Below, in pieces: positions 8,403-41,508 of a stretch of DNA of 64,000 bases; the first letter of the stretch is position 1; every line of letters begins with the position of its first letter. The DNA is from a bacterium (GTDB lineage: Bacteria > CAIWAD01), in assembly GCA_030429345.1 (NCBI GenBank), contig JAUIFJ010000007.1:1-64000 (forward strand), written 5' to 3'. The notes under the pieces are model-generated. The model did no database searches. It saw only the letters and a program-made list of their open reading frames with translations, and was not told where the DNA came from. The translations under genes and the position numbers were made by a program.

Positions 8403-9716
8403 TTGGACCGACTGATCTGGATTCTTGCCTTCGCGCTGACCTTTGGCGTGCCGCTGTTCTACTGGTACCGCGAAGGACGCCGCTCGCGCCAGGCAAAGGC
8501 CGTGCTGGAGCGCAATCGGAGCAGCGGAAGGATCGAGCCCCCCAGCCTGCACCCGGTGATCGGGGACCGCTGCGCCGGCATGGGCGCCTGCACGCGCGTC
8601 TGTCCCGAAGGCGACGTGATCCGCCGCATCGACAACCGCGCGGTGCTGGTCGAGCCGACCCACTGCATCGGTCATGGCGAATGCGCGGCTTCCTGCCCGG
8701 TGGACGCGATCCAGCTGGTTTTCGGCAGCGAGCGGCGCGGTGTCGATCTTCCCGAAGTGGGCGGGGATTTCCAGAGTTCGCGTCCCGGAGTCTATATCGC
8801 CGGCGAACTGGGCGGCATGGGCCTGATCCGCAATGCCTTCACACAGGGGCGGCAGGCCGCCCAGGCAATCGCCGCAAGCCTGGAAGGACAAGCGGCAGAA
8901 GGCGGAGCGGAGGATCTGGTCATCGTCGGGGCCGGTCCCGCGGGCCTGTCGGCGGCCCTGGAGGCCGGCAAGCTGGGACTGGGCTACCGCATCGTCGACC
9001 AGCAGGGCCTGGGCGGAGCGGTACTGAGCTACCCTCGCCGCAAGCTGGTGATGACGCGCCCGGTCCAGGTGCCGGGACAGGGGACCTGGAAACAGCAACA
9101 GATCCGCAAGGAAGAGCTGCTCGATCTCTTCCACGAGGCGGCCGGAAAAGGGGGGGTCCAGGTGCAGGCCCCCTGGAAGCTGGAGAAGATCGAAGGCGAG
9201 GCAGGCGACTTCCGCCTGTTCTCGGCGGATGGCCAGGTGCTTCGCGCCCGGCGAGTGCTGCTGGCCATCGGCAGGCGGGGCAGCCCCCGCAAATTGGGCG
9301 TACCCGGGGAAGACAGCGGCAAGACCGCCTACCAGCTGCTGGAAAGCGAAATCTGGCAGGACTGCCAGGTGCTGGTCGTCGGCGGAGGAGACAGCGCGCT
9401 TGAAGCCGCCCTGTCCCTGTCCGATGTGCCGGGCTGCACCGTCTGCCTGTCCTACCGCGGCAAGGAGATCTCCCGGGCGCGGGAGGCCAATCGACAAGCC
9501 CTGGAAGGGGCCATGGCCGCCGGACGCCTGCGCGTGCTGCTGCAGTCGCAGGTGCAGGAGATCACCGACAGCGAGGTCATCCTGCGCCTGCAGGATTCCG
9601 AAAGCCGCATGGCCAACGACCAGGTCTTCGTCTTCGCCGGAGGAGAAGTCCCGGCGACCTTCCTGCAGCAGAACGGCATCGCCATGCGGCGCTACACGGG
9701 GCAGGCGCGCTCGTGA
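8403..9716 (+). CDS. membrane-anchored 2x[4Fe-4S] FAD/NAD(P)-binding oxidoreductase
   Basis: A 437-residue protein of unusual domain order. Residues 3-22 (LIWILAFALTFGVPLFYW) form one membrane helix. Residues 50-95 are a bacterial ferredoxin domain with two cluster motifs, CAGMGACTRVCPEG and CIGHGECAASCPVD. From about 175 a thioredoxin-reductase-like flavoprotein follows: FAD fold GAGPAGLSAALEA and NAD(P) fold GGGDSALEAALSL. The CxxC redox disulfide of true thioredoxin reductases is missing, so electrons probably go to the FeS clusters, not to a dithiol. The start is TTG with no clear ribosome site. Its stop overlaps the GTG of the first multiheme gene (GTGA), so it should belong to the same operon and may feed or drain electrons on the cytoplasmic side (inference). 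Confidence 0.85.
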   Translation: MDRLIWILAFALTFGVPLFYWYREGRRSRQAKAVLERNRSSGRIEPPSLHPVIGDRCAGMGACTRVCPEGDVIRRIDNRAVLVEPTHCIGHGECAASCPVDAIQLVFGSERRGVDLPEVGGDFQSSRPGVYIAGELGGMGLIRNAFTQGRQAAQAIAASLEGQAAEGGAEDLVIVGAGPAGLSAALEAGKLGLGYRIVDQQGLGGAVLSYPRRKLVMTRPVQVPGQGTWKQQQIRKEELLDLFHEAAGKGGVQVQAPWKLEKIEGEAGDFRLFSADGQVLRARRVLLAIGRRGSPRKLGVPGEDSGKTAYQLLESEIWQDCQVLVVGGGDSALEAALSLSDVPGCTVCLSYRGKEISRAREANRQALEGAMAAGRLRVLLQSQVQEITDSEVILRLQDSESRMANDQVFVFAGGEVPATFLQQNGIAMRRYTGQARS

Positions 9717-11344
9717 TCCGCTTGCTGTGGATGCTGTCTTTGCTGCTGACCGGCACAACGGTCAAGGCCCAGTTCAGCCCGGGCAAGCTGGCCGCTCCGC
9801 ACGCGGCGCTGGAAGGCATGGAGAACTGCGTGGCCTGCCACGAACCCGGCCGCCAGACGACGGAGGAACGCTGCCTGGCCTGTCACACGGAGATCGTCGA
9901 GGCCATGCGCGCCGACCGAGGCCTGCACACGGAAAAGGAGCGGCAGGGCAAGGACTGCGCGCTCTGTCACAGCGATCACCATGGCCGCTCCTTCGAACTG
10001 GTCCACTGGCCGGAGGGCATCGGGAACTTCGATCACGGGCGCACGGCCTTCCTCCTGCAGGAAGCGCATGCCGCGCTGGAGTGCCGCGAGTGCCACAATC
10101 CGACGTATGTGCGCAAGGACTTCGCCGAGGCGCACCAGGCCTTCAATCCCGAGCGCGGCTACCTGGGCCTTGATCGAAGCTGCACCGGCTGCCACCAGGA
10201 TCCCCACCGGGAGGAACTGGGCTCGACCTGCATCGAGTGTCACAGCGCACGCAGCTGGCAGGCCTTGCCGGGCTTCGACCATGCCCGCGCCTGGCCGCTG
10301 GAAGGGGCGCACGTCTCCGTGGAATGCGGGCAATGCCATTTCTTCCCGCCGGACCTTCCCGAAGCGCAACGGGTCGAGGGCGCCCGGCGCTGGCGCGGGA
10401 TTCCGGCCGGCAGCTGCACCGAGTGTCACAACGACCCCCATGAGAACCGCCTGGGCAGTCGCTGCCTGGACTGCCACAGCCTGTGGAGCTTCCGTGACGC
10501 GGGCGAAGTCTTCGATCACTCTCTGACGGCCTGGCCGCTGCGCGGAGCGCACGAAGGCGTGGCCTGCGAGCAGTGTCACGGAGCGGAGAACCGCGACCTG
10601 CGCCCCGCATTTGCCTCCTGCACCGACTGCCATGGCCGCCCCCACGGCGGGCAATTCCTGGAGGGCGAGCCGCGGATCACGGCCTGCACCCTGTGTCACG
10701 ACGAGGCGGCCTGGCGTCCCGCCGACTACGGCCTGGCCGAACACGCGGAGCATGGCTGGCCGCTGGAAGGCGCCCACGGCGCCGTTCCCTGCGCCCTGTG
10801 CCACGTGGCCGGGGACAGCGGCGGGCCGGTGCGCTGGCGCGGAGTGGAGCGGGAGTGCGCGGCCTGTCACGCGAGTCCGCACGAAGAGGAGGAGAGCTTC
10901 CTTTCCTGCGCCGAGTGTCATGGCAGCGAAGAGTGGAGCGTGCGCTCCTTCGACCACGACGGCACGGCCTTTCCACTCGAGGGCGCGCACGGAAGCGTGG
11001 GCTGCGGCGAATGCCACTGGGCGGAAGACGAGCCGCGGGTTCCGCTGCGCGGCCTGGCGCTCGACTGCGCCGGCTGCCACCAGGATCCGCATCGCGGACA
11101 GTTCGCGGAGTCGGTGCCGCAGGGCTGCGTGCTGTGCCACGGAAATGAGCACTTCGTCCCCACGGTTTTCGATCACGACAGCATGAGCCGCTATGCGCTG
11201 GACGGCGCGCACCGCGCTCTGGCCTGTGCCGCCTGCCACCACCAGGAGCAGGACGAGCAGGGCCTTTTCGTGCGCTACCGGCCGCTGGGAACAGACTGCA
11301 GCGACTGCCACGGCGGTTCGCCGAAAAAGACGGAGAAGCCATGA
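9713..11344 (+). CDS. multiheme c-type cytochrome with 20 CxxCH motifs
   Basis: A 543-residue exported protein: signal peptide MIRLLWMLSLLLTGTTVKA, then 20 CxxCH heme-attachment motifs. Many motifs lie in irregular copies of a module that also carries FDH and GAH histidines (for example GFDHARAWPLEGAHVS and SFDHDGTAFPLEGAHGS), which could be the distal heme ligands. Some hemes lie close to DPHR/DPHE sequences. It is a cytochrome c3 / NrfH-like doubled-CxxCH superfamily type, with no catalytic signature I recognise. It starts with GTG overlapping the flavoprotein stop and ends overlapping the next ATG (ATGA). Likely periplasmic or outer-membrane-associated electron carrier. Confidence 0.93.
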   Translation: MIRLLWMLSLLLTGTTVKAQFSPGKLAAPHAALEGMENCVACHEPGRQTTEERCLACHTEIVEAMRADRGLHTEKERQGKDCALCHSDHHGRSFELVHWPEGIGNFDHGRTAFLLQEAHAALECRECHNPTYVRKDFAEAHQAFNPERGYLGLDRSCTGCHQDPHREELGSTCIECHSARSWQALPGFDHARAWPLEGAHVSVECGQCHFFPPDLPEAQRVEGARRWRGIPAGSCTECHNDPHENRLGSRCLDCHSLWSFRDAGEVFDHSLTAWPLRGAHEGVACEQCHGAENRDLRPAFASCTDCHGRPHGGQFLEGEPRITACTLCHDEAAWRPADYGLAEHAEHGWPLEGAHGAVPCALCHVAGDSGGPVRWRGVERECAACHASPHEEEESFLSCAECHGSEEWSVRSFDHDGTAFPLEGAHGSVGCGECHWAEDEPRVPLRGLALDCAGCHQDPHRGQFAESVPQGCVLCHGNEHFVPTVFDHDSMSRYALDGAHRALACAACHHQEQDEQGLFVRYRPLGTDCSDCHGGSPKKTEKP

Positions 11345-13968
11345 ATCACACCGCATGGACGGCCCTGCTTCCGGCGCTTCTTGCGAGCTGGGGCCTGGCC
11401 CTGGCGCAGGACAGCGCCGAGAACCCGCACGGCGACCTGGGCGACATGGAATGCGCCCTCTGTCACACGACCGAAGGCTGGAGCCCCCTGCGCCGGGACC
11501 TGGATTTCCGGCACGCGGACACGGGCTGGGAGTTGCACGGCGCGCACCGGGGCCTCGACTGCATGGATTGCCACGGCCTGGAGTTCGCCGGGCTCCAGGG
11601 CGACTGCGCGAGCTGCCACCTGGATGTCCACGAGGGCAGCGCGGGCTTCGACTGCCTGCGCTGTCATACGGAATCGCAGTGGAGCGACCCGGCGGGCTTC
11701 GAGCGCCTGCACATGGAAAGCAGTTTCCCGCTGGACGGCATCCATGATGGCCTGGCCTGCGCCTCCTGCCACCAGGGGCAGGACTACAGCAGTGCCCTGC
11801 CCGACTGCGCCTCCTGCCATCTGGCCGACTACCGCGGCGCCCTGGATCCACCCCACGAAAGCCTGGCCCTTGGCACCAATTGCCGCTCCTGCCACGACAC
11901 GCAGGACGCGCAGTGGAGCACGGACTTCGTCCATCCGGCCAGCTTTCCGCTGGAAGGCGGCCATTCCCTGGTTTCCTGCGCCTCCTGTCACGCTCCGGCG
12001 GAGCCACCGGGCGGCCTTGCCGCCGACTGCCGCAGCTGCCATGATGCCGAGGCCACCGCCCTGGCCGATCCGGATCACGGCCGCGCGGCCTTCGCCGGCG
12101 ATTGCGCGCTCTGCCACGGCGTCGATGCCTGGAGCCCGGCCTCCTTCGAGCATTCCCTCAGTGACTTCGCCCTTGAAGGAGCGCACCAGACCGTTTCCTG
12201 CGATGCCTGCCATCTGCCGCAGAGCACGCCGCGCTTCACCGGCCTGGCTGCCGACTGCGCCTCCTGCCACCAGGCGGATGCCGCGTCCGTCTCCGATCCG
12301 GATCACGGCCGCCCCGCGCTGGCGGGCGACTGCGCTGTCTGTCACACACCCGCCGCCTGGGAAAGCGCGAGCTTCGATCACGCGCTCAGCGACTATCCGC
12401 TGGAAGGGGCCCACGGCTCCCTGGATTGCTTCCAGTGCCACGGCAACGGCGACGCGGCGGTCTACACCTTCCTGCCTTCGGCCTGCCTCGATTGCCACCA
12501 GGCGGACTACGAGGCGGCGGAGGATCCGCTGCACGAGGGCGAGCTCTACGATGCGGACTGTCTGCGCTGCCACCACCAGGACAACTGGCAGGGCACGGAG
12601 ATCGACCACGACTTGACCGAGTTCCCGCTGATCGGCGCCCACAGGACCGTCGACTGCGAGTCCTGCCACGACACGGGCTTCAACAGCACCCTGCCGGACT
12701 GCGATTCCTGTCACCGGGCCGCCTTCGATGAGGCCGAGGAGCCGCCCCACGAAGAGGAGAGCTTCACGCTGGACTGTCTGCTTTGCCATGGCCAGGAGGC
12801 CTGGAGTCCTTCGGACTTCGATCACGCGATCCAGGCGGAATGGGAGCTGACCGGCGCCCACGTGGAGGAGGACTGCGCCTCTTGTCACGAGAACGGCATC
12901 TACACCACCGCCGCCACCGATTGCTGGTCCTGCCACCAGGCGGCCTGGGAAGAAGCGGAGGACCCGGACCACGAGGAGCTGGCCTTCCCGCAGGACTGCG
13001 CCCTGTGCCACACGACCTCGGACTGGGAGGACGCGGACTTCGACCATGCCCAGACGCAGTTCCCGCTGATCGGGGCACATGTGGATCAGCCCTGCCTGGC
13101 CTGCCACGAGCAAGGCTACGCCAACACGCCTTTCGCCTGCGCGGCCTGCCACCGCCCGGCCTTCGACGGCGCCGAGGAGCCTCCGCACGTGGAGCCCGAC
13201 TTCTCGACGGACTGCATGCTGTGTCACAGCCAGGATGCCTGGGAGCCCTCGTCCTTCGACCACGACGAGCAGACCGCCTACCCATTGATCGGTGCGCATC
13301 TGGAGGTCTCCTGTACCGAGTGTCACCTGCAGGAAGTCTACGCCGGCACGCCCGCCGACTGCTGGTCCTGCCACCAGCTGCAGTGGAACCAGGCGGAGCC
13401 GGAGCACGAGGAGCAGAGCTTCGGCAACGACTGCCTGCTCTGCCACAGCCAGACCGCCTGGGAGCCCAGCTCCTTCGACCACGACCAGTTGACCGACTAC
13501 CAGTTGACCGGGCAGCACCGGGACGCGGCCTGCGTGCTCTGTCATACGGAGGGGCAGTATGACGGTACTCCGGAAGCCTGCTGGTTCTGCCACATGCAGG
13601 ACTACGAGCAGGCCCAGGACCCGGACCACGCCCAATCCCTCTTCCCGGAAGACTGCACGCTGTGTCACACGACCGGCGGCTGGGAGCCCAGCACCTTCAA
13701 CCACGACCTGCTCTACTTCCCGATCTACGACGGCGAACACGAGGACGAATGGAACAGCTGCGCCGAGTGCCACACCACGCCCGGCGATTTCAGCGCCTTC
13801 TCCTGCGTCGACTGCCACGAGCACCGGCAGTCGGAAATGGATGACGAGCATGACGATGTCGGCGGCTATGTCTACGAAAGTTCGGCCTGCTACGCCTGCC
13901 ATCCGAATGGCGAGGAGGACTTCCTGCCTCGCCTGCCGCGCTATCCGGAACACCGGAGGATCAAGTGA
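11341..13968 (+). CDS. giant multiheme c-type cytochrome with 34 CxxCH motifs
   Basis: An 875-residue exported protein (signal peptide ending ASWGLALA). I count 34 CxxCH motifs arranged as 11 tandem modules of about 70-75 residues, each with three motifs, plus one final CYACH. A module runs DCxLCH-x4-W-x-P-x2-FDH, then PLxGAH-x5-C-x2-CH, then DCxxCH with a DPxH or PPHE ending. Each module therefore has three heme motifs and three extra conserved histidines (FDH, GAH, PxH), which fits bis-histidine ligation. Between modules there are many acidic residues. This regular design suggests a long heme wire. It overlaps both neighbours by 4 nt (ATGA upstream, GTGA downstream); GGAGAAG precedes the start. 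Confidence 0.95.
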   Translation: MNHTAWTALLPALLASWGLALAQDSAENPHGDLGDMECALCHTTEGWSPLRRDLDFRHADTGWELHGAHRGLDCMDCHGLEFAGLQGDCASCHLDVHEGSAGFDCLRCHTESQWSDPAGFERLHMESSFPLDGIHDGLACASCHQGQDYSSALPDCASCHLADYRGALDPPHESLALGTNCRSCHDTQDAQWSTDFVHPASFPLEGGHSLVSCASCHAPAEPPGGLAADCRSCHDAEATALADPDHGRAAFAGDCALCHGVDAWSPASFEHSLSDFALEGAHQTVSCDACHLPQSTPRFTGLAADCASCHQADAASVSDPDHGRPALAGDCAVCHTPAAWESASFDHALSDYPLEGAHGSLDCFQCHGNGDAAVYTFLPSACLDCHQADYEAAEDPLHEGELYDADCLRCHHQDNWQGTEIDHDLTEFPLIGAHRTVDCESCHDTGFNSTLPDCDSCHRAAFDEAEEPPHEEESFTLDCLLCHGQEAWSPSDFDHAIQAEWELTGAHVEEDCASCHENGIYTTAATDCWSCHQAAWEEAEDPDHEELAFPQDCALCHTTSDWEDADFDHAQTQFPLIGAHVDQPCLACHEQGYANTPFACAACHRPAFDGAEEPPHVEPDFSTDCMLCHSQDAWEPSSFDHDEQTAYPLIGAHLEVSCTECHLQEVYAGTPADCWSCHQLQWNQAEPEHEEQSFGNDCLLCHSQTAWEPSSFDHDQLTDYQLTGQHRDAACVLCHTEGQYDGTPEACWFCHMQDYEQAQDPDHAQSLFPEDCTLCHTTGGWEPSTFNHDLLYFPIYDGEHEDEWNSCAECHTTPGDFSAFSCVDCHEHRQSEMDDEHDDVGGYVYESSACYACHPNGEEDFLPRLPRYPEHRRIK

Positions 13969-15539
13969 AAGTCCTCCTTCTCCTTCTGCTGACGGCTGCC
14001 TTCACGCGCGCCGAAGAATCTCTGCGTTCACTGGAGGTCGTTGTGAGCTCCCTGTCACGGGACGCCCTCTTCGTCGAGGCCGGAAGCGCCGAGGGCCTGC
14101 GGCCCGGGGACCGGGTGCTGTATACGGACCCGAAGGGCGAGGTGCACGAACTGGAACTGCTCTTCGTCGCCAGCCGGCGCAGTTCTGTCTCACGCCCGGA
14201 AGACCTGGCGATCCGTCAGGGGGACTCCCTGGTGATCCTGTTGCCCGCAGAGCGATTCCGCGAGGAGGAGTCCGCCCCGGCGGATTCCCTGTCGGAAGCC
14301 CTATCCGTGAGGGAGGACACCCCTGCGGCGACCGATTCGCGGCAGGACTCCGCGCGCCCCGGACCGGCGGTCAAGGGCTACCTCGCCTTCGAGGTCGATC
14401 GCCAATCCCGTGAGGGGCAGCAGGAGGATCCGCTGGAAACCAGCCTCAAGGGCCGTCTCGAGGCCGAGCGGCTGGCCGGGCTTCCCCTGGAACTCCGCAC
14501 GCGCTTCCGGCTGCGCAGGCGAAGCGACGAGGATACGCGCTGGACCAGCCGCGTGCCCCTCTTCGAGCTCGCTGCGGCCTCCCGTGACGCGAGCTGGCGG
14601 TTGGGCCTTGGCCGTCTCAGCAGCGCGGCGGGCGGGTTCAGCGGACTGCGCCTGGACCTGCCTCGCGGAAACCAGGACTGGCGCTTCTGGGGCGGCGTGG
14701 GCAACCACGCGGACAACGACCGCCCGGACAGCGAACGGCGCACCCTGGGCGCGGAGTGGCGGTTGCGTCGCACACTCGGGGAACAGTCGCGGCTCCAGGG
14801 CTCGCTGGGCCTGCACGGCTGGTATACACCCGATCGAACCGAGGAAGAGCTCCTTCGTCAGACGCTGTTCTGGAATCAGGGCGATCGTCGCGCGCGCACC
14901 AGCCTGCGGCAGTCCCTGGAGCTGCAGGCCCACAGGGAGGACAAGCCGCAAGGCGAGGGTTCCTTGTCCCTCAAACGGCTCGACCTGCGGCTGCAGCGAA
15001 GCCAGGGCAGCCTGGAAGGCTGGCTGGGCTGGAGAACCCTGCGCCGCGCCATCGTCGAGAACCTGCCGGAAAGCCTGGACAGCCTGCTGGTCTGGCAGGA
15101 GAGCGGCGAGAGCAGCCTGGGTATTGCCTGGCGCATGCCGGGCCGCCACCGGCTGAGCGCCGAAGCCGCCTGGCCCAGGGACCAGGATGGAAGAACCGGC
15201 GCCCGCAGCCTGCGCTTCCATGCGAGCAGCGGAAGACTCCCCCTGCAGCTGCGTCTGCGGGCGCAGTTGCGCCTGACCACCAGCGACCAGCTGGACAATC
15301 GCCTGGTCAGCGTATACCTTGAGCGCGGAATCGGCCCGCTGGGCACCTTGAGTCTGCAGCAGGGATGGTATGTCCTGGAGCGGGCGGGGACGAAGGCGGA
15401 CAGCCGCTGGCTTCGTCTGGGAGTGAGGCGCGAATTCCGCCGGGGCCTCTTCCTGGTGCTCGACGCCGAGCGAAGCATCGCCGATGGACGAAGCGACGCC
15501 GATCGCCTTCGACTGGAAGCCGGCTGGCGTTTCCGCTAG
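13965..15539 (+). CDS. predicted outer-membrane beta-barrel of the redox operon
   Basis: A 524-residue protein with signal peptide MKVLLLLLLTAAFTRA. Residues about 22-95 form a small beta-domain (EAGSAEGLRPGDRVLY...) like the SH3-like folds that follow export signals in some envelope proteins. A linker rich in Asp/Ser/Pro follows, then about 390 residues of alternating strands (LRTRFRLRRR, WRLGLGRLS, EWRLRRTLG, LRLRAQLRL) ending in RLRLEAGWRFR, an aromatic/arginine C-terminus typical of barrels. I see no named family. Its position right behind two multiheme cytochromes with a GTGA overlap suggests it is the pore that lets a cytochrome reach the outside, as MtrB or PCC porins do; this is inference from context. 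CGGAGGA precedes the GTG. Confidence 0.65.
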   Translation: MKVLLLLLLTAAFTRAEESLRSLEVVVSSLSRDALFVEAGSAEGLRPGDRVLYTDPKGEVHELELLFVASRRSSVSRPEDLAIRQGDSLVILLPAERFREEESAPADSLSEALSVREDTPAATDSRQDSARPGPAVKGYLAFEVDRQSREGQQEDPLETSLKGRLEAERLAGLPLELRTRFRLRRRSDEDTRWTSRVPLFELAAASRDASWRLGLGRLSSAAGGFSGLRLDLPRGNQDWRFWGGVGNHADNDRPDSERRTLGAEWRLRRTLGEQSRLQGSLGLHGWYTPDRTEEELLRQTLFWNQGDRRARTSLRQSLELQAHREDKPQGEGSLSLKRLDLRLQRSQGSLEGWLGWRTLRRAIVENLPESLDSLLVWQESGESSLGIAWRMPGRHRLSAEAAWPRDQDGRTGARSLRFHASSGRLPLQLRLRAQLRLTTSDQLDNRLVSVYLERGIGPLGTLSLQQGWYVLERAGTKADSRWLRLGVRREFRRGLFLVLDAERSIADGRSDADRLRLEAGWRFR

Positions 15540-15565
15540 CGACAAGGACGAAGGAGCCCCGACAA

Positions 15566-16390
15566 GTGAATCGCCCCCTCTGGTTGCGTCTGCTGCTGGC
15601 GCTGCTTTATAGCTGCACGATTCTCGTCATGCTGGCCCTGCTGCGAACGGGGCTGCCATACTACGATCTCCCCCTCCATGAGCGGCCGCACCACGCGCTG
15701 CACGCACAGCTGAAGAGTTCCGGTTCGCTGGGCCTGGCGCTGGGTATTGTCGGCACGGCGATGATGCTGCTGATGCTGCTCTACATCCCCCGCAAGCGGC
15801 TGGCCTTCATGCAGGGCTGGGGAGATCTGCGCCACTGGCTGGATCTGCATATCTGGCTCGGGGTCACCGGCACGATCCTTGTCACCTTCCACAGCGCCTT
15901 TATCGTCGGCGGGGTCGTCAGCATCGCCTTCTGGTCGATGGTTGCCGTGGCCCTGAGCGGAGTGCTCGGCCGCTACCTCTACGTGCAGATTCCCCGGGGA
16001 ATCAACGGCCGGGAACTGAGCCGTCGCGAACTGGAAGAGAACCTGGGCCGCACCCTGAAGGAGATCCCGGGCGGGCTGTCCCTGCTCGAGGAGATTTCCC
16101 ACCCGGGCGCCCTGGGCCTGGGCGGATGGCTGCTGGAGGATCTCTTCGCCTTCCTAGACCGGGGCGGCCTGAAGCGGCGACTGCGCAGGCAGGGACACGA
16201 GGTTTCGCGCGAGGTCGCGGACAAGCTGGGCCAGGTGCTGCGGCTGCGCCGACGCATTCGGCGCCTCGAGCGCCTGAAGCGCCTGCTGCACCACTGGCAT
16301 GTGATCCATCGGCCCTTCGCGCTGGTGATGTATCTCATTTTGCTGGTGCATGTGGGCGCGGCGCTGTATTACAGTTTCAGCTGGCGCTAG
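15566..16390 (+). CDS. membrane cytochrome b / ferric-reductase-like protein
   Basis: A 274-residue inner-membrane protein. Hydrophobic helices lie at about 7-27, 55-75, 95-115, 118-138 and near the C-terminus (FALVMYLILLVHVGAALYY). Histidines at helix ends (LDLHIWLGVTG, VTFHSAF, HHWHVIHRPF, LVHVG) fit two b hemes stacked across the membrane, as in cytochrome b561 or ferric reductase-like families. A charged cytoplasmic loop of about 90 residues separates helix 4 and the last helix. It could pass electrons between quinol or the flavoprotein and the periplasmic cytochromes. The GTG at 15566 is chosen for AAGGAG 9 bases upstream. The stop shares CTAG with the convergent di-heme gene. Confidence 0.75.
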   Translation: MNRPLWLRLLLALLYSCTILVMLALLRTGLPYYDLPLHERPHHALHAQLKSSGSLGLALGIVGTAMMLLMLLYIPRKRLAFMQGWGDLRHWLDLHIWLGVTGTILVTFHSAFIVGGVVSIAFWSMVAVALSGVLGRYLYVQIPRGINGRELSRRELEENLGRTLKEIPGGLSLLEEISHPGALGLGGWLLEDLFAFLDRGGLKRRLRRQGHEVSREVADKLGQVLRLRRRIRRLERLKRLLHHWHVIHRPFALVMYLILLVHVGAALYYSFSWR

Positions 16391-17775
16391 AGGCTTTCGA
16401 GAAAGCGCAGCAGCCGGACGCGTTCCCCGGCCTCCAGGGCCTTGAAGGCTTCCCGGCTCTCTTCCGCTTCCCCGCCGTGCCACAGGATGGCCTCTTCCAG
16501 ACTGCGCGCGCGCCCGTCATGCAGGAACAAGGTGTGCCCGCTGACCACGTAGGTCAATCCGATGCCCCAGAGCGGAGCCGTGCGCCATTCCCGCCCGTCG
16601 GCCTCGAAGTCCGGCCGGCCGTCGGCCAGCTCCTCGCCCATGTCGTGCAGCAGCAAGTCCGTATACGGGCGGAAGGTCTGGTTCGAGACAGAGGGCACGC
16701 CGGGAAGAGATCCGCTCCGCAGTTCCGGCAGGTGGCAGCCGGCGCAACCGATCCTGTCGAAGAGCTCTTCGCCCGCCAGGGCATCGGGGTCATTCATCAG
16801 GCGTCGTACGGGAACTCCCAGGGTCTGCACATAGAACACGGCGGCTTCCAGCTCCTCGTCGGCCAGTTCCGGATCGTCGGCCAGGCTGTCCGCCTGGGGC
16901 TGTCCGTGACTGCTTTCGAAGGGGAAGACGGAATTGGTCACGCCCATGTCCCCGTGATAGGCGCCGGCCGTCTGCGCCAGCACGCTGGAGTTGGAGGCCT
17001 TGTGTCCGAAGCGGCCGAGGGCCGTTTCCCCCGTGAGCGGATCGTGGACGCGGTTCGCCCGGCCGCTGATGCCGTCCCCGTCCGCGTCGCCCGGATCCTC
17101 CAGCTCGAGCAGGGTCGTCTCGCTGACCGCCTCGAGCAGGCCGCGGCCGAAGACGGCGGGGGCCACGCGGGGCGAGACCTGCAGGTCGCCGGGCAGGGGG
17201 CGGTAGGCATCATGGATCACATAGTGCGGACGACGAAGGCTGTAGGCGGTGCCGTCCGGGTACTCGCCGGGCTCTTCGCTGTACTCCACGTACCATCGGG
17301 CATGCGCTTCGACCCCGAAGAGGGCGCGGTCGAAAAGCTGCCGGCCAAAGCCGGGAACAGGCATGGGCCCGCCATCTTCGGCCACGCCCGGAATGCTGAT
17401 GCGAAGGAACATCGATTCCGGCGCCACGCCGTTCTCCGGCGGCCGGCCCCGACCGTCTCCCGGGTGGCAGGCGATGCAGGCATTGTTGTTGAAGACCGGC
17501 CCCAGGCCCGCGTTGACCGGCGCCGGCGCGCTGACGAACTCGGCCTCGAAGGCCGCGTCCCCGGCCAGGTGCAGATCCAGGTCGCCCACATTCGGCGCCG
17601 GCAGGCGATAGGCCTGGCTGTTGCCGATGTAGACGGTGGTTTCCCCTCCCAGCAGGGCGCGATCCGGATCCGCGGCCCCCATGTCGGACAGCGGACCCGA
17701 GTCCTCTTCGCAGGCCAGCATCAGGCAGGTGCCGAGCAGCAGCGCCCTGGTGGGAGAAAAGGCGCGGCGTGTCAT
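16387..17775 (-). CDS. di-heme oxidoreductase family lipoprotein (DHOR)
   Basis: A 462-residue protein with lipobox LMLAC, so a lipid-anchored envelope protein. It has two heme motifs, CIACHPGDGRGRPP (about residue 95) and CAGCH (about residue 350), plus the family features GFGRQLFDRALFG, DADGDGISGRANRV, GRFGHKAS and LLLHDMGEEL. This matches the di-heme oxidoreductive peroxidase (thiol-oxidoreductase-like) family, which in many Gram-negatives travels with imelysins in iron-linked loci. ATG at 17775 overlaps the upstream stop (ATGA) and has GGAGGGAAGC before it. A substrate cannot be told from sequence. Confidence 0.9.
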   Translation of the reverse strand: MTRRAFSPTRALLLGTCLMLACEEDSGPLSDMGAADPDRALLGGETTVYIGNSQAYRLPAPNVGDLDLHLAGDAAFEAEFVSAPAPVNAGLGPVFNNNACIACHPGDGRGRPPENGVAPESMFLRISIPGVAEDGGPMPVPGFGRQLFDRALFGVEAHARWYVEYSEEPGEYPDGTAYSLRRPHYVIHDAYRPLPGDLQVSPRVAPAVFGRGLLEAVSETTLLELEDPGDADGDGISGRANRVHDPLTGETALGRFGHKASNSSVLAQTAGAYHGDMGVTNSVFPFESSHGQPQADSLADDPELADEELEAAVFYVQTLGVPVRRLMNDPDALAGEELFDRIGCAGCHLPELRSGSLPGVPSVSNQTFRPYTDLLLHDMGEELADGRPDFEADGREWRTAPLWGIGLTYVVSGHTLFLHDGRARSLEEAILWHGGEAEESREAFKALEAGERVRLLRFLESL

Positions 17776-18302
17776 GCTTCCCTCCAGTGCATCACGAAAA
17801 GGACCAGGGTCAGCAGCAGGCCGATGAGACAGAGGCCGGAACCCGGAAGGGCGAGCCACTGCAGGCTCTCCTTGGCCGCGCCCGTCCCGCCGAGGCCGGG
17901 CGCTCGCATGCCGGCCAGGAGCCAGAAGAGCGAATAGAGAAGAGCGCCCAGGCCGGAGGCCAGCGCCGCCGCCTGCCGCAGGCGCTCGCGACCGGGCAGG
18001 ACTCCCAGGAGCAGGATCAGGGCCAGGGCGCTGGTGCCCAGGCCGTTGGCATGCAGGTGGGCGCGCTTGTAGTAGGTCCAGGACTTGGATGTCACACGCT
18101 GCATGCTCGCCAGGTCGCCCTGGTATGCGTCGGCGAGCACGGCGCGGCCGCGCTCTTGCAGGCCCTGCTTCAGGGAATCCTCGGCCGCGCCGAAGACCGC
18201 GCCAAGACCGAAGCCGAAGAGCAGCGCCAGCAGGGCGAAAAGCAGGCCCGGAGCCAGCAGGCGAAAGGCGCCGGCTCCGGGAAGGGTGTTCGTGCTACTC
18301 AT
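17772..18302 (-). CDS. four-helix membrane protein of the imelysin operon
   Basis: A 176-residue protein with four strongly hydrophobic segments (about 15-38, 88-105, 112-130 and 147-168). Between helices 1 and 2 lies a soluble stretch with SWTYYKRAHLHANGLG; the two histidines before the helix could bind metal or heme. I do not recognise the family. It starts inside the last codons of imelysin (8-nt overlap) and ends in an ATGA overlap with the di-heme gene, so translation of all three is coupled. Confidence 0.7.
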   Translation of the reverse strand: MSSTNTLPGAGAFRLLAPGLLFALLALLFGFGLGAVFGAAEDSLKQGLQERGRAVLADAYQGDLASMQRVTSKSWTYYKRAHLHANGLGTSALALILLLGVLPGRERLRQAAALASGLGALLYSLFWLLAGMRAPGLGGTGAAKESLQWLALPGSGLCLIGLLLTLVLFVMHWREA

Positions 18303-19350
18303 CGAGCAGGGCCTTCAGGTCGCTCTCCAGGGTGGTGGCGATCGCACCCACCGCGGCCTGGGCGGCCTCGATGGCCACGCCCTGGTCCAGGTTGTCGCGG
18401 AAGGGGTGCGGAATCGCGGCGATGGCGGCGATGGCGGCGTCGATCTCCGTCAGCGTGCGCGTGTTGAGCTCCGCGTCGCGTTCGGCCACATAGTCGTTGA
18501 GACCCATGCCGCCCAGGTCTCCATTGCGCCCGCCCGTATAGGCGTGGCGGATGCTGCGGATGTTGTTCTGGAAGTCGGTCAGCGAGTTCCAGCTGAACTG
18601 GGATTCGACCAGCTCCGTGTCCTGGTTGTCGTAGGGGTCGGCGATCTTGCCCGCTCCCACTTCGTCGGCGATGCCGATCATGCCCTCGACGATTTCGTAG
18701 AGCGCGTCCTTCTGGCTAAGGAAGCGGCTGCCCGCCGAGCCCGCCTGGCGAAACTCCTGCCCGTAGGCGCCTGTCCAGCCTTCCAGCAGCAGGGCCGCGT
18801 CATCGGCGAGCACCTGGCAGACGGCCACCAGGTACTCGCTTTCGCGGACCGTGAGATCGGCGGCCATGCGCTGCATGCCATCGCGGAAGAGCAGGTACTC
18901 GGCGGTATGGAAGCCGCGCAGGGCGGGACCCAGGCCTTCGGCGATGGTCGCCGCGTTGAGTTCCAGGCTGCTGGCCAAAACATCATTGAGCTGCTGGCGG
19001 TCCACGGGCCAGCTGTCGAGGGAGGGATCCAGGCCCTGGATTTCAGCGGGACCGAAGAGAAAGGCCTCGCTGGACTCCCAGGGCGCGCGCGTGTCGATCC
19101 AGGCCTCCGCGGCCGCGTCCAGCAGGTCCTGGTTGCTCCTGTCGGCGGCCAGGGCCTGCACGGCGGCCAGCAGCGCGTCGGCATTGTCGCGCAACTCCGT
19201 ATACGTGGGGATGGCCACGCCCGAGTAGAAGGATTCCAGGTAGGGCGACAGATCCACGGTGCCGGGGCCGCCGTTGCTGTCGTCGTTGTCCGAACAGCCG
19301 CTGAAGCCGATGCCGGCAAGCAGGGCCAGAAGGGGAATGCGTGTCTTCAT
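18295..19350 (-). CDS. imelysin family lipoprotein (M75 / EfeO-like)
   Basis: A 351-residue lipoprotein (lipobox GFSGC) of the imelysin / insulin-cleaving membrane protease family, now seen mostly as iron-linked periplasmic proteins related to EfeO. The key motif GxHxxE is present in RGFHTAEYLLF (about residue 145); an N-terminal repeat (WIDTRAPWESSEAFLFGP) and a C-terminal half with YTGG and a low-complexity IDAAIAAIAAI helix follow. True peptidase activity is doubtful in the family. GGAG lies 6 bases before the ATG. The porin gene is 34 bases upstream, the small membrane protein and DHOR directly downstream: a likely iron-uptake operon. Confidence 0.9.
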   Translation of the reverse strand: MKTRIPLLALLAGIGFSGCSDNDDSNGGPGTVDLSPYLESFYSGVAIPTYTELRDNADALLAAVQALAADRSNQDLLDAAAEAWIDTRAPWESSEAFLFGPAEIQGLDPSLDSWPVDRQQLNDVLASSLELNAATIAEGLGPALRGFHTAEYLLFRDGMQRMAADLTVRESEYLVAVCQVLADDAALLLEGWTGAYGQEFRQAGSAGSRFLSQKDALYEIVEGMIGIADEVGAGKIADPYDNQDTELVESQFSWNSLTDFQNNIRSIRHAYTGGRNGDLGGMGLNDYVAERDAELNTRTLTEIDAAIAAIAAIPHPFRDNLDQGVAIEAAQAAVGAIATTLESDLKALLDE

Positions 19351-19384
19351 GAGTACTCCGGTCTGTATGATGAAAGGTCTGTGA

Positions 19385-20626
19385 CTACTCTGTGCGGAAA
19401 AAGGTGCCCTGGAAGCCCAGGCCCAGGCTGAAGGTGGTTTCCGGGCGAATGCTGCCGGCGCCGAAGCTGCGGCGGGAGAGCTCGGCCTTCAGGACCCAGC
19501 TTGACGCCGTGCTGAGATGCAGGCCGCCGGAGACAAGCCGGCGATCGAAGCGTGGCACGGGGAAAAGTCCCGCGTCCGTGTGCGCCATGCTGTTGTAGCG
19601 CGCCCAGCCCAGCCAGGGGCGCAGCAGGCCTTTCCGGCCCAGGACCTGCGCCAGGTTCCAGCCGGCTTCCAGCTGGAGGCTGCGTGCGCCTTCGGCCACC
19701 GGAGTGCGCGGGACGCCGAGGGCCGTGCTCAGCCGGCTGTTGCGGGAACGGATCGCGGCCGCGTCGGAGAGGCGGCCCTCCAGGCCCGAGGCGCGCAGCA
19801 GCAGCGGGCCGTGTTCCAGCATCGCGTGCGCCTCGAGCAGGCTGACCGTGCCGGAAGCGCTGCCCAGGTCGTCCTTGGGCCGGTTGCCCACGCTGTTGCC
19901 CAGGTATCCGGACACGCCCAGTGTGAGACCTTCGCCCGGTCGCCAGTCGCAGCGGGCCGCCAGGGCCAGGGCGTCGGCGCGCACCTGCTCGAAGCGCAGC
20001 TGGTGTCCGCCGCGGATCCAGTGCTTCGAGTCGAAGCCGCTGGAGTCCAGGCCGTTGACCAGTTGCAGGACGGCGGACCAGGCCTGGCGATCGATGTATA
20101 CGCCGACACCGCTCTCGTGCCAGCTGGAGGGCAGCAGGCCGCTCTCGGCCTCGGGCCTCAGCAGGCTGAACCAGTCCAATGGCTTGTGATCCAGGGCATG
20201 CAGTCCGATCGGCAGCAGGAGGCGTCCGGCCTGGATCCGCACGTTGTCGCCCAGGCGCCACCCAAGGAGCAGCTGCTCCAGGAGGATCTCGCCACCCTTC
20301 TCGACTTCCTGCTCGTACTCGCCGAATTCCTCGTACTCCAGTTCCATGGCGGCGCCGGTGCCGCCGTGCTCGAACTCGATCTCGGCCTTCCAGTAGATCC
20401 TGTGATCCAGATCTCCCTCGAATTCAAGCACGAAGCGGGGCAGGTCGATGGTGGCCCGGCTGTCCTTCGGCGCTCCCGAGGGACTGCTTTTCTGGTCCGG
20501 GCCGTAGTCGTGGTGAGAGTAGACGATTTCGCCATAGCCCTTGAGTTCGAAGGCCCCGGCCGGGGGCCACAACAGGGTCAGTCCCAGCGCGAGGCCGAGC
20601 GGGCGGAGGAGGGGGTTGATCTGCAC
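19385..20626 (-). CDS. porin, phosphate-selective porin O/P-like
   Basis: A 413-residue outer-membrane barrel. After a signal peptide (LGLALGLTLLWPPAGA) come FELKGYGEIVYS, then an RFVLEFEGDLDHRIYWKAEIEFEH strand pair (given as two strands), a very acidic loop (YEEFGEYEQEVEKGGE), the hallmark LEQLLLGWRLGDNVRIQAG and LLPIGL, and a C-terminal strand LGLGFQGTFFR. This is the pattern of OprO/OprP-like porins in FCB and proteobacteria. The acidic loop would suit cations such as iron rather than phosphate. GTG at 20626 is chosen because an upstream TTG at 20662 lies inside the predicted -10. First gene of the imelysin operon. Confidence 0.8.
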   Translation of the reverse strand: MQINPLLRPLGLALGLTLLWPPAGAFELKGYGEIVYSHHDYGPDQKSSPSGAPKDSRATIDLPRFVLEFEGDLDHRIYWKAEIEFEHGGTGAAMELEYEEFGEYEQEVEKGGEILLEQLLLGWRLGDNVRIQAGRLLLPIGLHALDHKPLDWFSLLRPEAESGLLPSSWHESGVGVYIDRQAWSAVLQLVNGLDSSGFDSKHWIRGGHQLRFEQVRADALALAARCDWRPGEGLTLGVSGYLGNSVGNRPKDDLGSASGTVSLLEAHAMLEHGPLLLRASGLEGRLSDAAAIRSRNSRLSTALGVPRTPVAEGARSLQLEAGWNLAQVLGRKGLLRPWLGWARYNSMAHTDAGLFPVPRFDRRLVSGGLHLSTASSWVLKAELSRRSFGAGSIRPETTFSLGLGFQGTFFRTE

Positions 20627-20659
20627 TCTGCGAATACCTTTCGTCCGACAAGTCAGCTG

Positions 20660-20688
20660 CAAGATAGAAACTTAGGAAGGACAAACAA
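20660..20688 (-). promoter_or_regulatory. predicted sigma70-type promoter of the porin-imelysin operon
   Basis: On the minus strand TTGTTT (20688-20683), a 16-base spacer and TATCTT (20666-20661). The start of transcription would be about 30 bases before the GTG at 20626. No clear Fur box is visible around it. Confidence 0.55.
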
Positions 20689-37154: not shown

Positions 37155-37521
37155 ACAGCATGCCCGCAGCAGCGGGGAGCGCCCGGCCATCGAGGCCTGG
37201 CCCAACCAGTTTCCCGGCTGCGAAACCGAAATCGAGATCTGCAATCCCGAATTCACCTGCCGCTGCCCGAAAACCGGCCAGCCGGACTTTGCCAGCATTC
37301 GGATTCTCTACGTTCCCGACCAGAGCTGCGTCGAGTTGAAGTCCTTCAAGATCTATCTGCAGGCCTACCGCGAAATGGGCATCTTCCACGAGAACGTGGT
37401 CAACCAGGTCTTCGAGGACCTGGAAGCGGCCCTTTCCCCCAGACGCCTGCAAGTCATTGGCGAGTTCCACGCCCGCGGCGGCATTACGACCACCGTGCGG
37501 CGCAGCAGCAGGGCCTCATGA
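37138..37521 (+). CDS. queF: NADPH-dependent 7-cyano-7-deazaguanine reductase
   Basis: A 127-residue type I (short) QueF, which reduces preQ0 to preQ1 on the way to queuosine in tRNA. Family marks: FTCRCPKTGQPDFA with the catalytic cysteine and aspartate, the QueF motif VELKSFKIY, the substrate glutamate in FHEN. GGAGAGGAG lies upstream of the ATG at 37138, inside the end of rsmE. bamA starts within its stop codon. Confidence 0.95.
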   Translation: MGSYTEQHARSSGERPAIEAWPNQFPGCETEIEICNPEFTCRCPKTGQPDFASIRILYVPDQSCVELKSFKIYLQAYREMGIFHENVVNQVFEDLEAALSPRRLQVIGEFHARGGITTTVRRSSRAS

Positions 37522-39827
37522 GCCGAACAATCCTCCTTCTGATCCTCTTCGCGCTGGCGCTGCTGGCGGGACCGTCCCACGCCCAGGCGCCGCCGCAAGG
37601 GCCGGTGCTGCTGGGCCTGACCGTGGAAGGCAACACGGGCACCGACGAGAACCTGGTCCGCATCAACAGCGGACTGGTCAACGGCCAGTCCCTGGGCGCC
37701 GAGGACATTCAGCACGCCCTGCGCCAGCTGTGGAGCCTGGGCCGTTTCTCCAACGTGGAAATCCAGATCGCCCGCGAACTCGAAGAAGGCCTCTACCTGA
37801 AGATTCTCGTCGAGGAGAAGGCCCTGCTGCGCGAGATGGAAATCCTGGGCAACCGCAAGTTGAAGAAGAACCGCATCAAGACGGCCCTCGAGGAAGAGGT
37901 CACCACCGGCAAGCCGATCGGCGAGCGCGAGGTCTTCCGCGTCCGCCAGGCCCTGCTCGACCTGTATCACAGCGAAGGCTACGAGCAGGCCGAGGTCGAG
38001 GCCACCCTGCGGAATCCGGACGAGGGGCGCGTCAGCCTCTACATCGTGATCAAGGAGGGGCGCCGCACGCGCATTCGCGAAGTCGTCGTCGCCGGCAATG
38101 CGGCCTTCACCGACCGCAAGCTGGCCAGGCAGATGAAGAAGACCCGCGAACGCGGCTTCCTGCGCAAGGGCGAATTCGACGAGGACGCCTTCGAAGAGGA
38201 TAAGCGCCTGGTCGAGGCCTACATGCACCAGAAGGGCTACCGCGACGGACGCGTCGTCGACGACAGCGTCAGCCTGCGCGAGGACGGCAAGAGCTTGCGC
38301 GTCGAGATCCAGGTCTTCGAGGGCCAGCAGTATACCTTCGGCGAGATCAGCTTCGCCGGCAACGCGGTCTTCGACACGGACTTCCTGGGCAACCAGCTGC
38401 TCTTCGCCAGCGGGGACATCTACAACGAGGAGAAGTTCCAGCGCAGCCTGGAAAGCCTGCAGGACCTGTACTACAACCGCGGCTACATCCAGGCCGTGAT
38501 CGACCCGGTCGAGAAGCCGCGCGGCGAGACCACGGTCGACGTGCATTTCGTGATCCAGGAAAACGAGATCTTCAGCGTGCGACGCGTCGAGTTCGCCGGC
38601 AACGACAAGACCAAGGAAAAGGTCCTGCGCCGCGAAATGAAGCTCCACCCCGGGGACACCTTCGACGTGGCCCGGCTACGGCGCAGCCTGCGCGAACTGA
38701 CGATCCTCAACTACTTCGACCAGGTGGAACCCCACGTGGACGTGGCCAGCGGAGACCAGGTCGACCTGACCATCGAGGTCAACGAGAAGACCACGGATCA
38801 GATTTCCATGTCCGCCGGCTACAGCGAGCGCGACAAGCTGGTGGGCAGCCTGGGCTTTACCCTGAACAACCTGGCGGGCAACGGCCAGAAGCTGAACCTG
38901 GACTGGCAGTTCGCCCGCAGCTACCGCTCGATCCGCCTGGACTTCGAAGAGCCCTGGTTGCTGGACCGGCCGGTGCTGGCGGGCATCAGCCTCTACGATA
39001 CCTACTACAACCGCACGACCAGCGACGGCTTCAATCGGCGCATCCGCGGAGGCAGCGCCACGCTGGGGCGGCGTTTGAACTGGCCAGACAACTATTTCCA
39101 GGTTCGCAGCACCTACGCCCTGGAAGAGGTCGTCTACCTGGACTTCGTCGAGAGTGAGCGCGAGCGCCTGATCGAGCGCGGCTTCCGCGAGGACGATCCC
39201 CAGATCAGCTCCACCCTTTCGCTGGTGCTGCTGCGCGACAGCCGGGACCACCCGGAGTTCCCGACCACGGGTTCGACCCTGCGTCTGCGCAGCAAGTTCG
39301 GCGGCGGTTACCTGGGCGGGGCCTACGACTTCCAGAAGTACACCATGACCGCCCGCAGCTACAGTCCCTTCTTCGGCAAGTTCGTCTTCTACAATTCCAT
39401 GGAGACGGGCATTGTCGACGGCCTGAGCACGGGCGACGAGATTCCGTGGTACGAGCGTTTCTTCATGGGCGGCACGGCCCTGTCCGTCGGCACGCCCCTG
39501 CGCGGCTATGATGAACGCAGCGTGGGCACGGAGGACGAGGGCGGCCGGGCCTTCGTCAAGTTCGGCAGCGAGGTGCGCGTGCAGCTGATTCCCAGCCCCA
39601 CCGTCTACGGCCTGGTCTTCGCGGAATCGGGCAATGTCTGGAAGAACCTGACCTCGGCCTCGCTGAGTGACCTGAGCCGCAGCGCGGGCATCGGCCTGCG
39701 GCTGCACATGCCGCTGGTCGGCCTGATCGGCCTGGACTACGCCTACGGCTTCGACCGCGTCGACAGCGGCACGGGGCTGCGCGAGGGGCGCTGGGAGTTC
39801 CACTTCCAGTTCGGCCGCGAATTCTGA
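37518..39827 (+). CDS. bamA: outer-membrane protein assembly factor BamA
   Basis: A 769-residue Omp85 protein and core of the BAM complex. Signal peptide (LLLILFALALLAGPSHA), five POTRA domains (about 25-430; for example LRREMEILGNRKLKKNRI, IREVVVAGNAAF, FGEISFAGNAVFD, VRRVEFAGNDKTKE) and a C-terminal barrel (430-769) with RLRSKFGGGYLGGA, the L6 loop PLRGYDE and a final strand WEFHFQFGREF with terminal Phe. Skp and the Lpx genes follow, the standard envelope cluster. Confidence 0.95.
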   Translation: MSRTILLLILFALALLAGPSHAQAPPQGPVLLGLTVEGNTGTDENLVRINSGLVNGQSLGAEDIQHALRQLWSLGRFSNVEIQIARELEEGLYLKILVEEKALLREMEILGNRKLKKNRIKTALEEEVTTGKPIGEREVFRVRQALLDLYHSEGYEQAEVEATLRNPDEGRVSLYIVIKEGRRTRIREVVVAGNAAFTDRKLARQMKKTRERGFLRKGEFDEDAFEEDKRLVEAYMHQKGYRDGRVVDDSVSLREDGKSLRVEIQVFEGQQYTFGEISFAGNAVFDTDFLGNQLLFASGDIYNEEKFQRSLESLQDLYYNRGYIQAVIDPVEKPRGETTVDVHFVIQENEIFSVRRVEFAGNDKTKEKVLRREMKLHPGDTFDVARLRRSLRELTILNYFDQVEPHVDVASGDQVDLTIEVNEKTTDQISMSAGYSERDKLVGSLGFTLNNLAGNGQKLNLDWQFARSYRSIRLDFEEPWLLDRPVLAGISLYDTYYNRTTSDGFNRRIRGGSATLGRRLNWPDNYFQVRSTYALEEVVYLDFVESERERLIERGFREDDPQISSTLSLVLLRDSRDHPEFPTTGSTLRLRSKFGGGYLGGAYDFQKYTMTARSYSPFFGKFVFYNSMETGIVDGLSTGDEIPWYERFFMGGTALSVGTPLRGYDERSVGTEDEGGRAFVKFGSEVRVQLIPSPTVYGLVFAESGNVWKNLTSASLSDLSRSAGIGLRLHMPLVGLIGLDYAYGFDRVDSGTGLREGRWEFHFQFGREF

Positions 39828-40440: not shown

Positions 40441-41508
40441 ATGGTCCGCCTGAGCAGCTCCCAGCTGGCCCGCGCCCTGGGCGCACGACTGGAAGGGCCG
40501 GAGGAGCGCATGCTCGCCGGGGGCGCTCCCCTGGACAGGGCCGGCGAGGACCAGCTCAGTTTCCTGAGCAACCCGCGCTATGCCGGCCAGGTTGCCGGCA
40601 GCGGCGCCGGCGCGATCCTGATCAGCCCCGCAAGCCATGCGGGACTGCCTGGAGAAGTGCGCGGCGCGCCCCGCTGCTGGCTGCTCCATGAGGATCCCTA
40701 TGGCGCATTCGCCGAGGCCCTGGGCCTCTTCAAGCCGCCCCGCGAGGACTGGGGACACGGCGTGCACGCCAGCGCCGTGATCCACCCCACGGCCACCATC
40801 GGGGAAGGGGCCGTGATCGGCCCCCACGTGGTGCTCGAGGAGAACGTGGTGGTGGGCGGAGGCAGCGTGATCCTCGCCAACTGCATGCTCTACCGCGGTG
40901 CGCGAATCGGCCGCGACTGCCGCCTGCACGCGGGCTGCGTGATCCGCGAGGACTGCGTGCTCGGGGACCGGGTGCTGCTGCACGACGGCGTGGTCATCGG
41001 TAGCGACGGCTTCGGCTTCGCGCCGGGGCCCGACGGCGGCGTGAAGAAGATTCCGCAGACCGGGATCGTCGAGGTCGGCGACGAGGTCGAGATGGGCGCC
41101 AACTGCACCATCGACCGCGCGACCATGGGCGCGACGCGCATCGGCGCGGGCTCCAAGCTGGACAACCTGGTGCACGTGGCGCACAATGTGAGCATCGGCC
41201 CCGGCTCGATGATCGCCGGGCAGAGCGGCATCGCCGGCAGCACGACCCTGGGGCCGGGCTGCATCATGGGCGGCAACAGCGCCGTTTCCGGCCACCTGGT
41301 GCTGGGCGCGGGAGTGCAGGTCGGCGGCCACTCCGGGGTCACCGGCAACGCGGCTCCGGGAAGCAGGCTGGCAGGATTTCCTGCCGTGAAGCACAAGGAT
41401 TTCCTGGCGCAGAGCGCGGCCCTTAGGAAACTGCCCGAGCTGCGGCGGCAGCTGAAAGAGATGCAAAAGCAGCTTCGCTTGCTGCAGCAGGAAGGCGAAC
41501 CCGAATGA
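40441..41508 (+). CDS. lpxD: UDP-3-O-(3-hydroxyacyl)glucosamine N-acyltransferase
   Basis: A 355-residue hexapeptide-repeat enzyme, third step of lipid A synthesis. N-terminal uridine-binding domain (1-100, DQLSFLSNPRYAGQV), left-handed beta-helix (105-310) with the catalytic histidine in LVHVAHNVSIG and the GSDGFGFAPG substrate loop, and a C-terminal helix (LRKLPELRRQLKEMQKQL). Its end overlaps the next ATG. Confidence 0.95.
   Translation: MVRLSSSQLARALGARLEGPEERMLAGGAPLDRAGEDQLSFLSNPRYAGQVAGSGAGAILISPASHAGLPGEVRGAPRCWLLHEDPYGAFAEALGLFKPPREDWGHGVHASAVIHPTATIGEGAVIGPHVVLEENVVVGGGSVILANCMLYRGARIGRDCRLHAGCVIREDCVLGDRVLLHDGVVIGSDGFGFAPGPDGGVKKIPQTGIVEVGDEVEMGANCTIDRATMGATRIGAGSKLDNLVHVAHNVSIGPGSMIAGQSGIAGSTTLGPGCIMGGNSAVSGHLVLGAGVQVGGHSGVTGNAAPGSRLAGFPAVKHKDFLAQSAALRKLPELRRQLKEMQKQLRLLQQEGEPE

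Follow-up and report, generated by a model that had tools for sequence, protein, structure and literature searches.

A divergent PCC3-type porin–cytochrome locus and its near-obligate companion, a predicted membrane-anchored NAD(P)H flavoprotein

PCC3 is a hypothetical porin–cytochrome conduit made up of a porin, an extracellular multiheme cytochrome (eMHC), a periplasmic multiheme cytochrome (pMHC) and an inner-membrane protein (IMP), with medians of 34 and 21 hemes for the two cytochromes (He et al. 2017, PMC5566968). The system was reported to be non-homologous to earlier porin–cytochrome conduits (PMC5566968). It is common among iron oxidizers and symbionts. So far it has been regarded as a conduit of four genes, probably linked to quinones, with an unsettled direction of electron flow. 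He et al. guess that the IMP is quinone-active, because its HX13H pattern resembles that of quinone-active cytochromes b (PMC5566968). Later papers on PCC3 also describe four genes, the function of which is only predicted. Here we analyze a locus of five genes (g1–g5, Table 1) on a 64,000-nucleotide stretch of bacterial DNA (contig JAUIFJ010000007.1 of assembly GCA_030429345.1, GTDB lineage CAIWAD01), referred to as the window. An earlier note on this DNA had proposed that these genes encode an electron conduit across the whole envelope that has a cytoplasmic NAD(P)H module of its own, and that this set is unlike any described system.

For four of the five parts, the claim of novelty did not hold, because these parts correspond to PCC3. 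The 34 hemes of g3 equal the eMHC median, the 20 hemes of g2 compare with a pMHC median of 21, and both proteins (27.2 and 25.7 residues per heme for g2 and g3, respectively) fall within the PCC3 range of 22–39. Published IMPs contain about 300 residues, five transmembrane helices, an SGXXG motif and two WX3HX13H motifs; all of these features recur in g5 (274 residues, SGVLG). The flavoprotein encoded by g1 is what sets this locus apart. A literature search that included other names found no flavoprotein tied to PCC3, although supplements and subscription papers were beyond its reach and the association may be noted elsewhere. The published version of PCC3 consists of four genes and comes from Proteobacteria only, whereas the operon in the window includes the flavoprotein. 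Furthermore, the window porin represents a distant subfamily, the eMHC is built from three-heme repeats instead of 23-residue one-heme repeats, and the heme spacing of the pMHC also differs. From these sequence features, the locus would be a divergent PCC3 conduit of the type found in the window, KSB1, Zixiibacteriota, Bacteroidota and Ignavibacteria (FCB type), distinguished by a porin subfamily and a heme-repeat pattern of its own. Other genomes keep the set together as a unit, and both the set and its NAD(P)H module stand as proposed; that the assembly spans the entire envelope is our inference. Other porin–cytochrome conduits likewise combine a porin with periplasmic and, in some cases, surface multiheme cytochromes. 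The Uet complex of Tenderia, which also pairs a porin with multiheme cytochromes, was rejected as an identity for this locus because its heme numbers (11–12, 4 and 3, next to NHL-repeat proteins) do not fit.

With an alignment of three g1 sequences, we scanned 84,980 species genomes. This search gave at least 578 confirmed relatives, of which the best 80 were kept. In 63 of these 80 loci, found by g1 alone, an IMP gene lies within about 10 kb, in most cases together with two large cytochromes. The retrieved PCC3 clusters span many phyla and include the published cluster from Amphritea atlantica DSM 18887 with the same 63 and 21 hemes. Among the remaining loci, 10 of 15 tested have an IMP elsewhere in the genome. 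Since the 80-locus set was chosen by g1, we then sampled 185 gammaproteobacterial and 198 Bacteroidota genomes regardless of either gene, counting IMP matches above 180 bits and gammaproteobacterial g1 matches of at least 400 bits; these thresholds were chosen once the separation of strong from weak matches was known. The gammaproteobacterial sample contains g1 in 23 of 23 genomes with an IMP and in 2 of 162 without (Fisher 2.3e-27). Among the Bacteroidota, full-length g1 occurs in 18 of 19 genomes with an IMP and in none of the 179 others (Fisher 1.2e-24). Both Fisher values are upper bounds on the strength of the association, as related genomes are not independent.

The three exceptions are one decayed cluster and two contig fragments. 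The one Bacteroidota genome with an IMP and no g1 carries a decayed cluster (L091, 9514-10636) with a shortened IMP and a 94-residue porin remnant, from which cytochromes and flavoprotein have disappeared together. In one of the two gammaproteobacterial genomes with g1 and no IMP (G203), g1 lies close to the end of its contig, next to a barrel-like gene and to an 11-heme gene located at the edge; in the other (G123), it lies on a 3.5-kb contig together with heme-rich fragments. Bacteroidota proteins of about 830 residues with a partial g1 match were set aside, because the match begins at about profile position 120 and the Fe–S part is absent. In three genomes (G058, G061 and G126), two IMPs are paired with two g1 genes. 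Across 61 loci the tree distances of g1 and IMP correlate with a coefficient of 0.89, compared to at most 0.17 in 999 permutations. From the co-occurrence and co-variation computed here, we propose the NAD(P)H flavoprotein as a near-obligate fifth component of PCC3.

What kind of protein is g1? The description as a flavoprotein with a membrane helix was borne out by a hydrophobic N-terminus and by significant matches to Pyr_redox_3 (1.9e-33), Pyr_redox_2 and Fer4_10 (7.7e-8). The positive-inside pattern places the body of the protein, as a prediction, in the cytoplasm. The nearest families of the FAD/NAD(P) domain are YpdA and thioredoxin reductase, which share with g1 the two-dinucleotide-binding fold (residues about 170–430); g1 scores far under the cut-offs of these families. 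Unlike them, g1 adds a transmembrane anchor and an Fe–S domain, and the redox CxxC is not conserved, which makes a role as a disulfide reductase unlikely. Its relatives and the invariant residues R352 and R358 suggest that g1 may use NADPH over NADH. The second claim about this protein, two [4Fe-4S] motifs, failed: the second cysteine is absent from both motifs (M60 and H91), and a test for a canonical 2[4Fe-4S] ferredoxin was negative. As neither motif is canonical, two [4Fe-4S] clusters should not be assumed. Of 83 g1 homologues, 53 have Cys, 18 Ser and 9 Thr at the second-cysteine position of motif 1, with single cases of Ala, Gly and Met; in motif 2, this position is His in all 83. Isolated ferredoxins in which His, Ser or Thr replaces this cysteine contain [3Fe-4S] clusters with shifted potentials (PMC6237146). 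Because those ferredoxins hold a single cluster, a [3Fe-4S] assignment in g1 would be an extrapolation.

The second protein that bears on the electron source is g5, claimed earlier as a histidine-rich membrane protein. An AlphaFold2 model of g5 (pLDDT 86.8) contains five long membrane-type helices, and the histidine pairs H95/H109 and H248/H262 are indeed present, in the model helices 88–109 and 215–272. All four residues are invariant among 19 diverse homologues. Paired HX13H motifs on transmembrane helices 3 and 5 are also the arrangement found in NADPH oxidase (NOX)/ferric reductase. Given motif position and topology, two b hemes in g5 would form a wire through the inner membrane.

The number of heme motifs claimed for the two cytochromes proved exact on recount (20 and 34 CxxCH); shuffled g2 and g3 average 0.26 and 0.39 motifs and contain at most 3. 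Both proteins consist of c7/c3-type heme repeats (Cytochrome_C7, 4.3e-26 for g2 and 3.8e-40 for g3) and both carry signal peptides. The heme spacing of g2 (15,28,42,33,16) is shared with other FCB-type pMHCs, while g3 is acidic and contains three-heme repeats of about 74 residues with a spacing of about (32,16,25)n. PDB sequence searches with g2 and g3 gave nothing at 1e-3, and the MtrA/DmsE-type decaheme model TIGR03508 scored 27 and 41 bits, respectively, against a cut-off of 192. We predict g2 to be periplasmic and g3 to be extracellular.

The product of g4 has no match in Pfam or NCBIfam. Its AlphaFold2 model, of moderate confidence (pLDDT 65, pTM 0.53), is all-beta, with a small beta domain at the N-terminus followed by about 22 strands. 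The matches that Foldseek listed from the PDB for this model are outer-membrane barrels (best E 3.6e-8). The model thus agrees, at moderate confidence, with the barrel claimed for this gene. The g4 family adjoins the eMHC in other clusters and is remotely related to the proteobacterial PCC3 porins (hhalign probability 68, E 4.8e-5).

Taken as one chain, the five proteins could form a path in which we infer the coupling of g1 to g5, NADPH as the donor, the outward direction, the locations of g2 and g3, and the acceptor. Cytoplasmic NADPH would transfer a hydride to the FAD of g1, and the unusual Fe–S domain would pass electrons one at a time to the b heme near the inner side of g5 (H95/H248), from where they would move to the b heme near the outer side (H109/H262). 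Across the periplasm, these electrons would be taken by the 20-heme cytochrome g2; the barrel g4 would hold the junction in the outer membrane, and the 34-heme cytochrome g3 would deliver them to an acceptor outside the cell. The whole would resemble a split ferric reductase/NADPH oxidase run outward with the PCC3 heme wire as its outlet. NADPH oxidase/ferric reductase and Fre–MsrQ likewise combine an NAD(P)H flavoprotein with a membrane protein in which helices 3 and 5 bear two HX13H pairs. In Fre, which feeds MsrQ, there is a precedent for an NAD(P)H reductase that is separate from the heme protein it serves (PMC5676040). In contrast to these systems, g1 is of the YpdA/thioredoxin-reductase type with an Fe–S domain instead of an FNR domain, and the outlet in the window is a multiheme wire.

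Electron flow from NADPH to the outside is downhill in redox potential and along the membrane potential; flow inward to NADP+ is neither, unless the donor has a very low potential. For this reason we favor an NADPH-driven extracellular reductase. We consider it probable that the locus encodes an FCB-type PCC3 conduit with a near-obligate membrane-anchored NAD(P)H flavoprotein and a likely outward path from NADPH. The broader proposition, that PCC3 in general is a class of five-component NADPH-driven extracellular reductases which bypass the quinone pool and connect cytoplasmic NADPH to the exterior by way of some 30 to 100 hemes, appears to us evenly balanced between right and wrong. Such a class would comprise at least Proteobacteria, Bacteroidota, Ignavibacteria, KSB1, Zixiibacteriota, Omnitrophota and the phylum of the window.

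Several observations weigh against this interpretation. Shared ancestry accounts for part of the co-variation between g1 and IMP, g1 is transcribed divergently or lies some kb distant in many Proteobacteria, and co-occurrence is no proof of electron transfer. The match of g5 to Ferric_reduct (PF01794) reaches 24.6 bits and stays under the gathering score of 28, and Foldseek with the g5 model gave no PDB match at E ≤ 0.001. The NOX-like function of g5 therefore rests on motifs, and the fold does not settle between a NOX-type and a quinone-type role. A PDB search with the g5 profile gave a chance match only. Finally, no result presented here fixes the direction of flow.

The strongest alternative retains the quinone link of He et al.: the IMP would exchange electrons with the quinone pool, for example with extracellular Fe(II) as the donor, and the flavoprotein would be an accessory, either a reductase for cytochrome maturation or repair or a second entry point. 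The HX13H pattern, common to quinone-active cytochromes b (PMC5566968), and the presence of PCC3 in iron oxidizers agree with this explanation. Yet an NAD(P)H-type flavoprotein accompanies PCC3 no less constantly than the IMP does, and in S. lithotrophicus ES-1 the PCC3 genes fall instead of rise on Fe(II) (PMC8788666). This response agrees with a function different from Fe(II) oxidation, although it proves no direction. On balance we regard the quinone-linked explanation as unlikely. Less likely still is that the same five-part chain runs inward, from an extracellular donor to cytoplasmic NADP+ for biosynthesis. The gene content suits either direction and some carriers are iron oxidizers or related autotrophs, but by general bioenergetics this flow would run uphill from Fe(II) and counter to the membrane potential, and many carriers are Bacteroidota (Saprospiraceae, Emticicia) with no obvious need for reverse flow to NADP+. 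That g2 and g3 merely store or move electrons within the periplasm, next to an unrelated outer-membrane protein g4, would suit the plain signal peptide of g3, which lacks a lipobox, but is very improbable given that the barrel adjoins the eMHC in the complete clusters examined, that g4 overlaps g3 by 4 nt and that the barrels of FCB type and Proteobacteria are remotely related.

If the flavoprotein is a constant companion, then the electron source of PCC3, its likely direction (outward) and its energetics change. Provided that our interpretation is true, the step from NADPH to PCC3 would serve redox balancing and not energy conservation, and PCC3 would be doubtful as a marker of iron oxidation. 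The cultured carriers Amphritea atlantica DSM 18887 and Emticicia oligotrophica DSM 17448 are open to genetics.

Comparison of the clusters reveals two lineages. The genes for IMP, flavoprotein, pMHC, eMHC and barrel are mostly in tandem in FCB-type clusters, overlapping or adjoining. Their order varies even in the family of the window, where the IMP comes first in two relatives and last in the window. Proteobacterial clusters often have the flavoprotein gene in divergent orientation, and in all four that were checked the gene of an ankyrin/Sel1 protein comes after it (about 670 residues; L049 11229-13286, L013 11298-13307, L067 4459-6450, L041 11293-13299). The pMHC spacing is 15,28,40-42 then 28-33,16,33 in FCB type versus 16,29,40 then repeats of 17,18,33 in Proteobacteria, and the eMHCs consist of three-heme repeats versus 23-residue one-heme repeats. 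Heme numbers of the pMHC step by three, mostly 17/20/23 in FCB type versus 18/21/24 in Proteobacteria, as if three-heme units had been gained or lost.

Two other loci carry genes for cytochrome maturation next to PCC3. In a Pseudorhodobacter metagenome-assembled genome, CcmF and a thioredoxin-like (redoxin) gene lie beside the PCC3 IMP and pMHC (L086, 3564-6091 and 13158-19181); the eMHC gene of this locus is cut by the locus end and contains at least 85 CxxCH motifs. Plasmid pEMTOL02 of the cultured Emticicia oligotrophica DSM 17448 combines ccsA, IMP, flavoprotein, a 23-heme and a 40-heme cytochrome and the barrel (L090, 4962-16829) in a compact conduit cassette that is complete in itself and includes a gene for cytochrome maturation. 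In the genome of the window, heme attachment by CcmF (system I) was rejected for want of a CcmF match. This genome contains PF01578 proteins, one of them in a 1066-residue frame as expected of fused CcsBA, which suggests that cytochromes are probably matured by system II.

Recomputed open reading frames place all five genes at the positions given in the earlier note and in the same direction, with overlaps of 4 nt at g1/g2, g2/g3 and g3/g4 and a 26-nt gap between g4 and g5. The TTG start of g1 agrees with the starts of aligned relatives; a clear ribosome-binding site was not seen there.

Table 1. Genes and motifs of the PCC3-type locus (positions in the window)
Feature	Position	Strand	Description
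g1	8403..9716	+	437 aa, TTG start; membrane-anchored NAD(P)H/FAD/Fe–S flavoprotein, proposed cytoplasmic electron-entry module
g1 Fe–S motif 1	8571..8603	+	CxxMxxCxxxCP, C57-x2-M60-x2-C63-x3-C67-P, residues 57–67; CAGMGACTRVCP
g1 Fe–S motif 2	8664..8696	+	CxxHxxCxxxCP, C88-x2-H91-x2-C94-x3-C98-P, residues 88–98; CIGHGECAASCP
g2	9713..11344	+	543 aa, GTG start; 20-heme cytochrome, PCC3 pMHC (predicted)
g3	11341..13968	+	875 aa, ATG start; 34-heme cytochrome, PCC3 eMHC (predicted)
g4	13965..15539	+	524 aa, GTG start; predicted outer-membrane barrel (porin)
g4 domains	about 14022-14246; about 14370-15533	+	small N-terminal beta domain; barrel (AlphaFold2 model)
g5	15566..16390	+	274 aa, GTG start; IMP, predicted di-heme b, five transmembrane helices
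g5 first WX3HX13H	15836..15892	+	W91, H95, H109
g5 second WX3HX13H	16295..16351	+	W244, H248, H262

Upstream of g1 lies a divergent glgB-like gene (132 nt from start to start), and downstream of g5 a convergent gene for a di-heme oxidoreductase, the stops of both overlapping by 4 nt. The latter belongs to a row on the minus strand (16387-20662) that continues with a 176-residue protein, an imelysin (Peptidase_M75) and a Porin_O_P-like barrel. This row looks like a separate metal- or redox-related group and is not kept beside other PCC3 clusters. The neighbors glgB, groES, di-heme oxidoreductase, imelysin, Porin_O_P and peptidase were rejected as parts of the system, because homologues are absent from related loci. 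Elsewhere on the plus strand, the window encodes an LpxC fused to a FabA/FabZ-type domain (41505-42899) and an Omp85/BamA-type protein (37518-39827); from these two genes, the lipopolysaccharide outer membrane that the conduit requires is expected in this organism. At 56704-59313, also on the plus strand, a TPR-CHAT protein (CHAT protease domain, 6.5e-21) adjoins a 921-residue protein with Ig-like matches of the HYDIN/Cep192 type.

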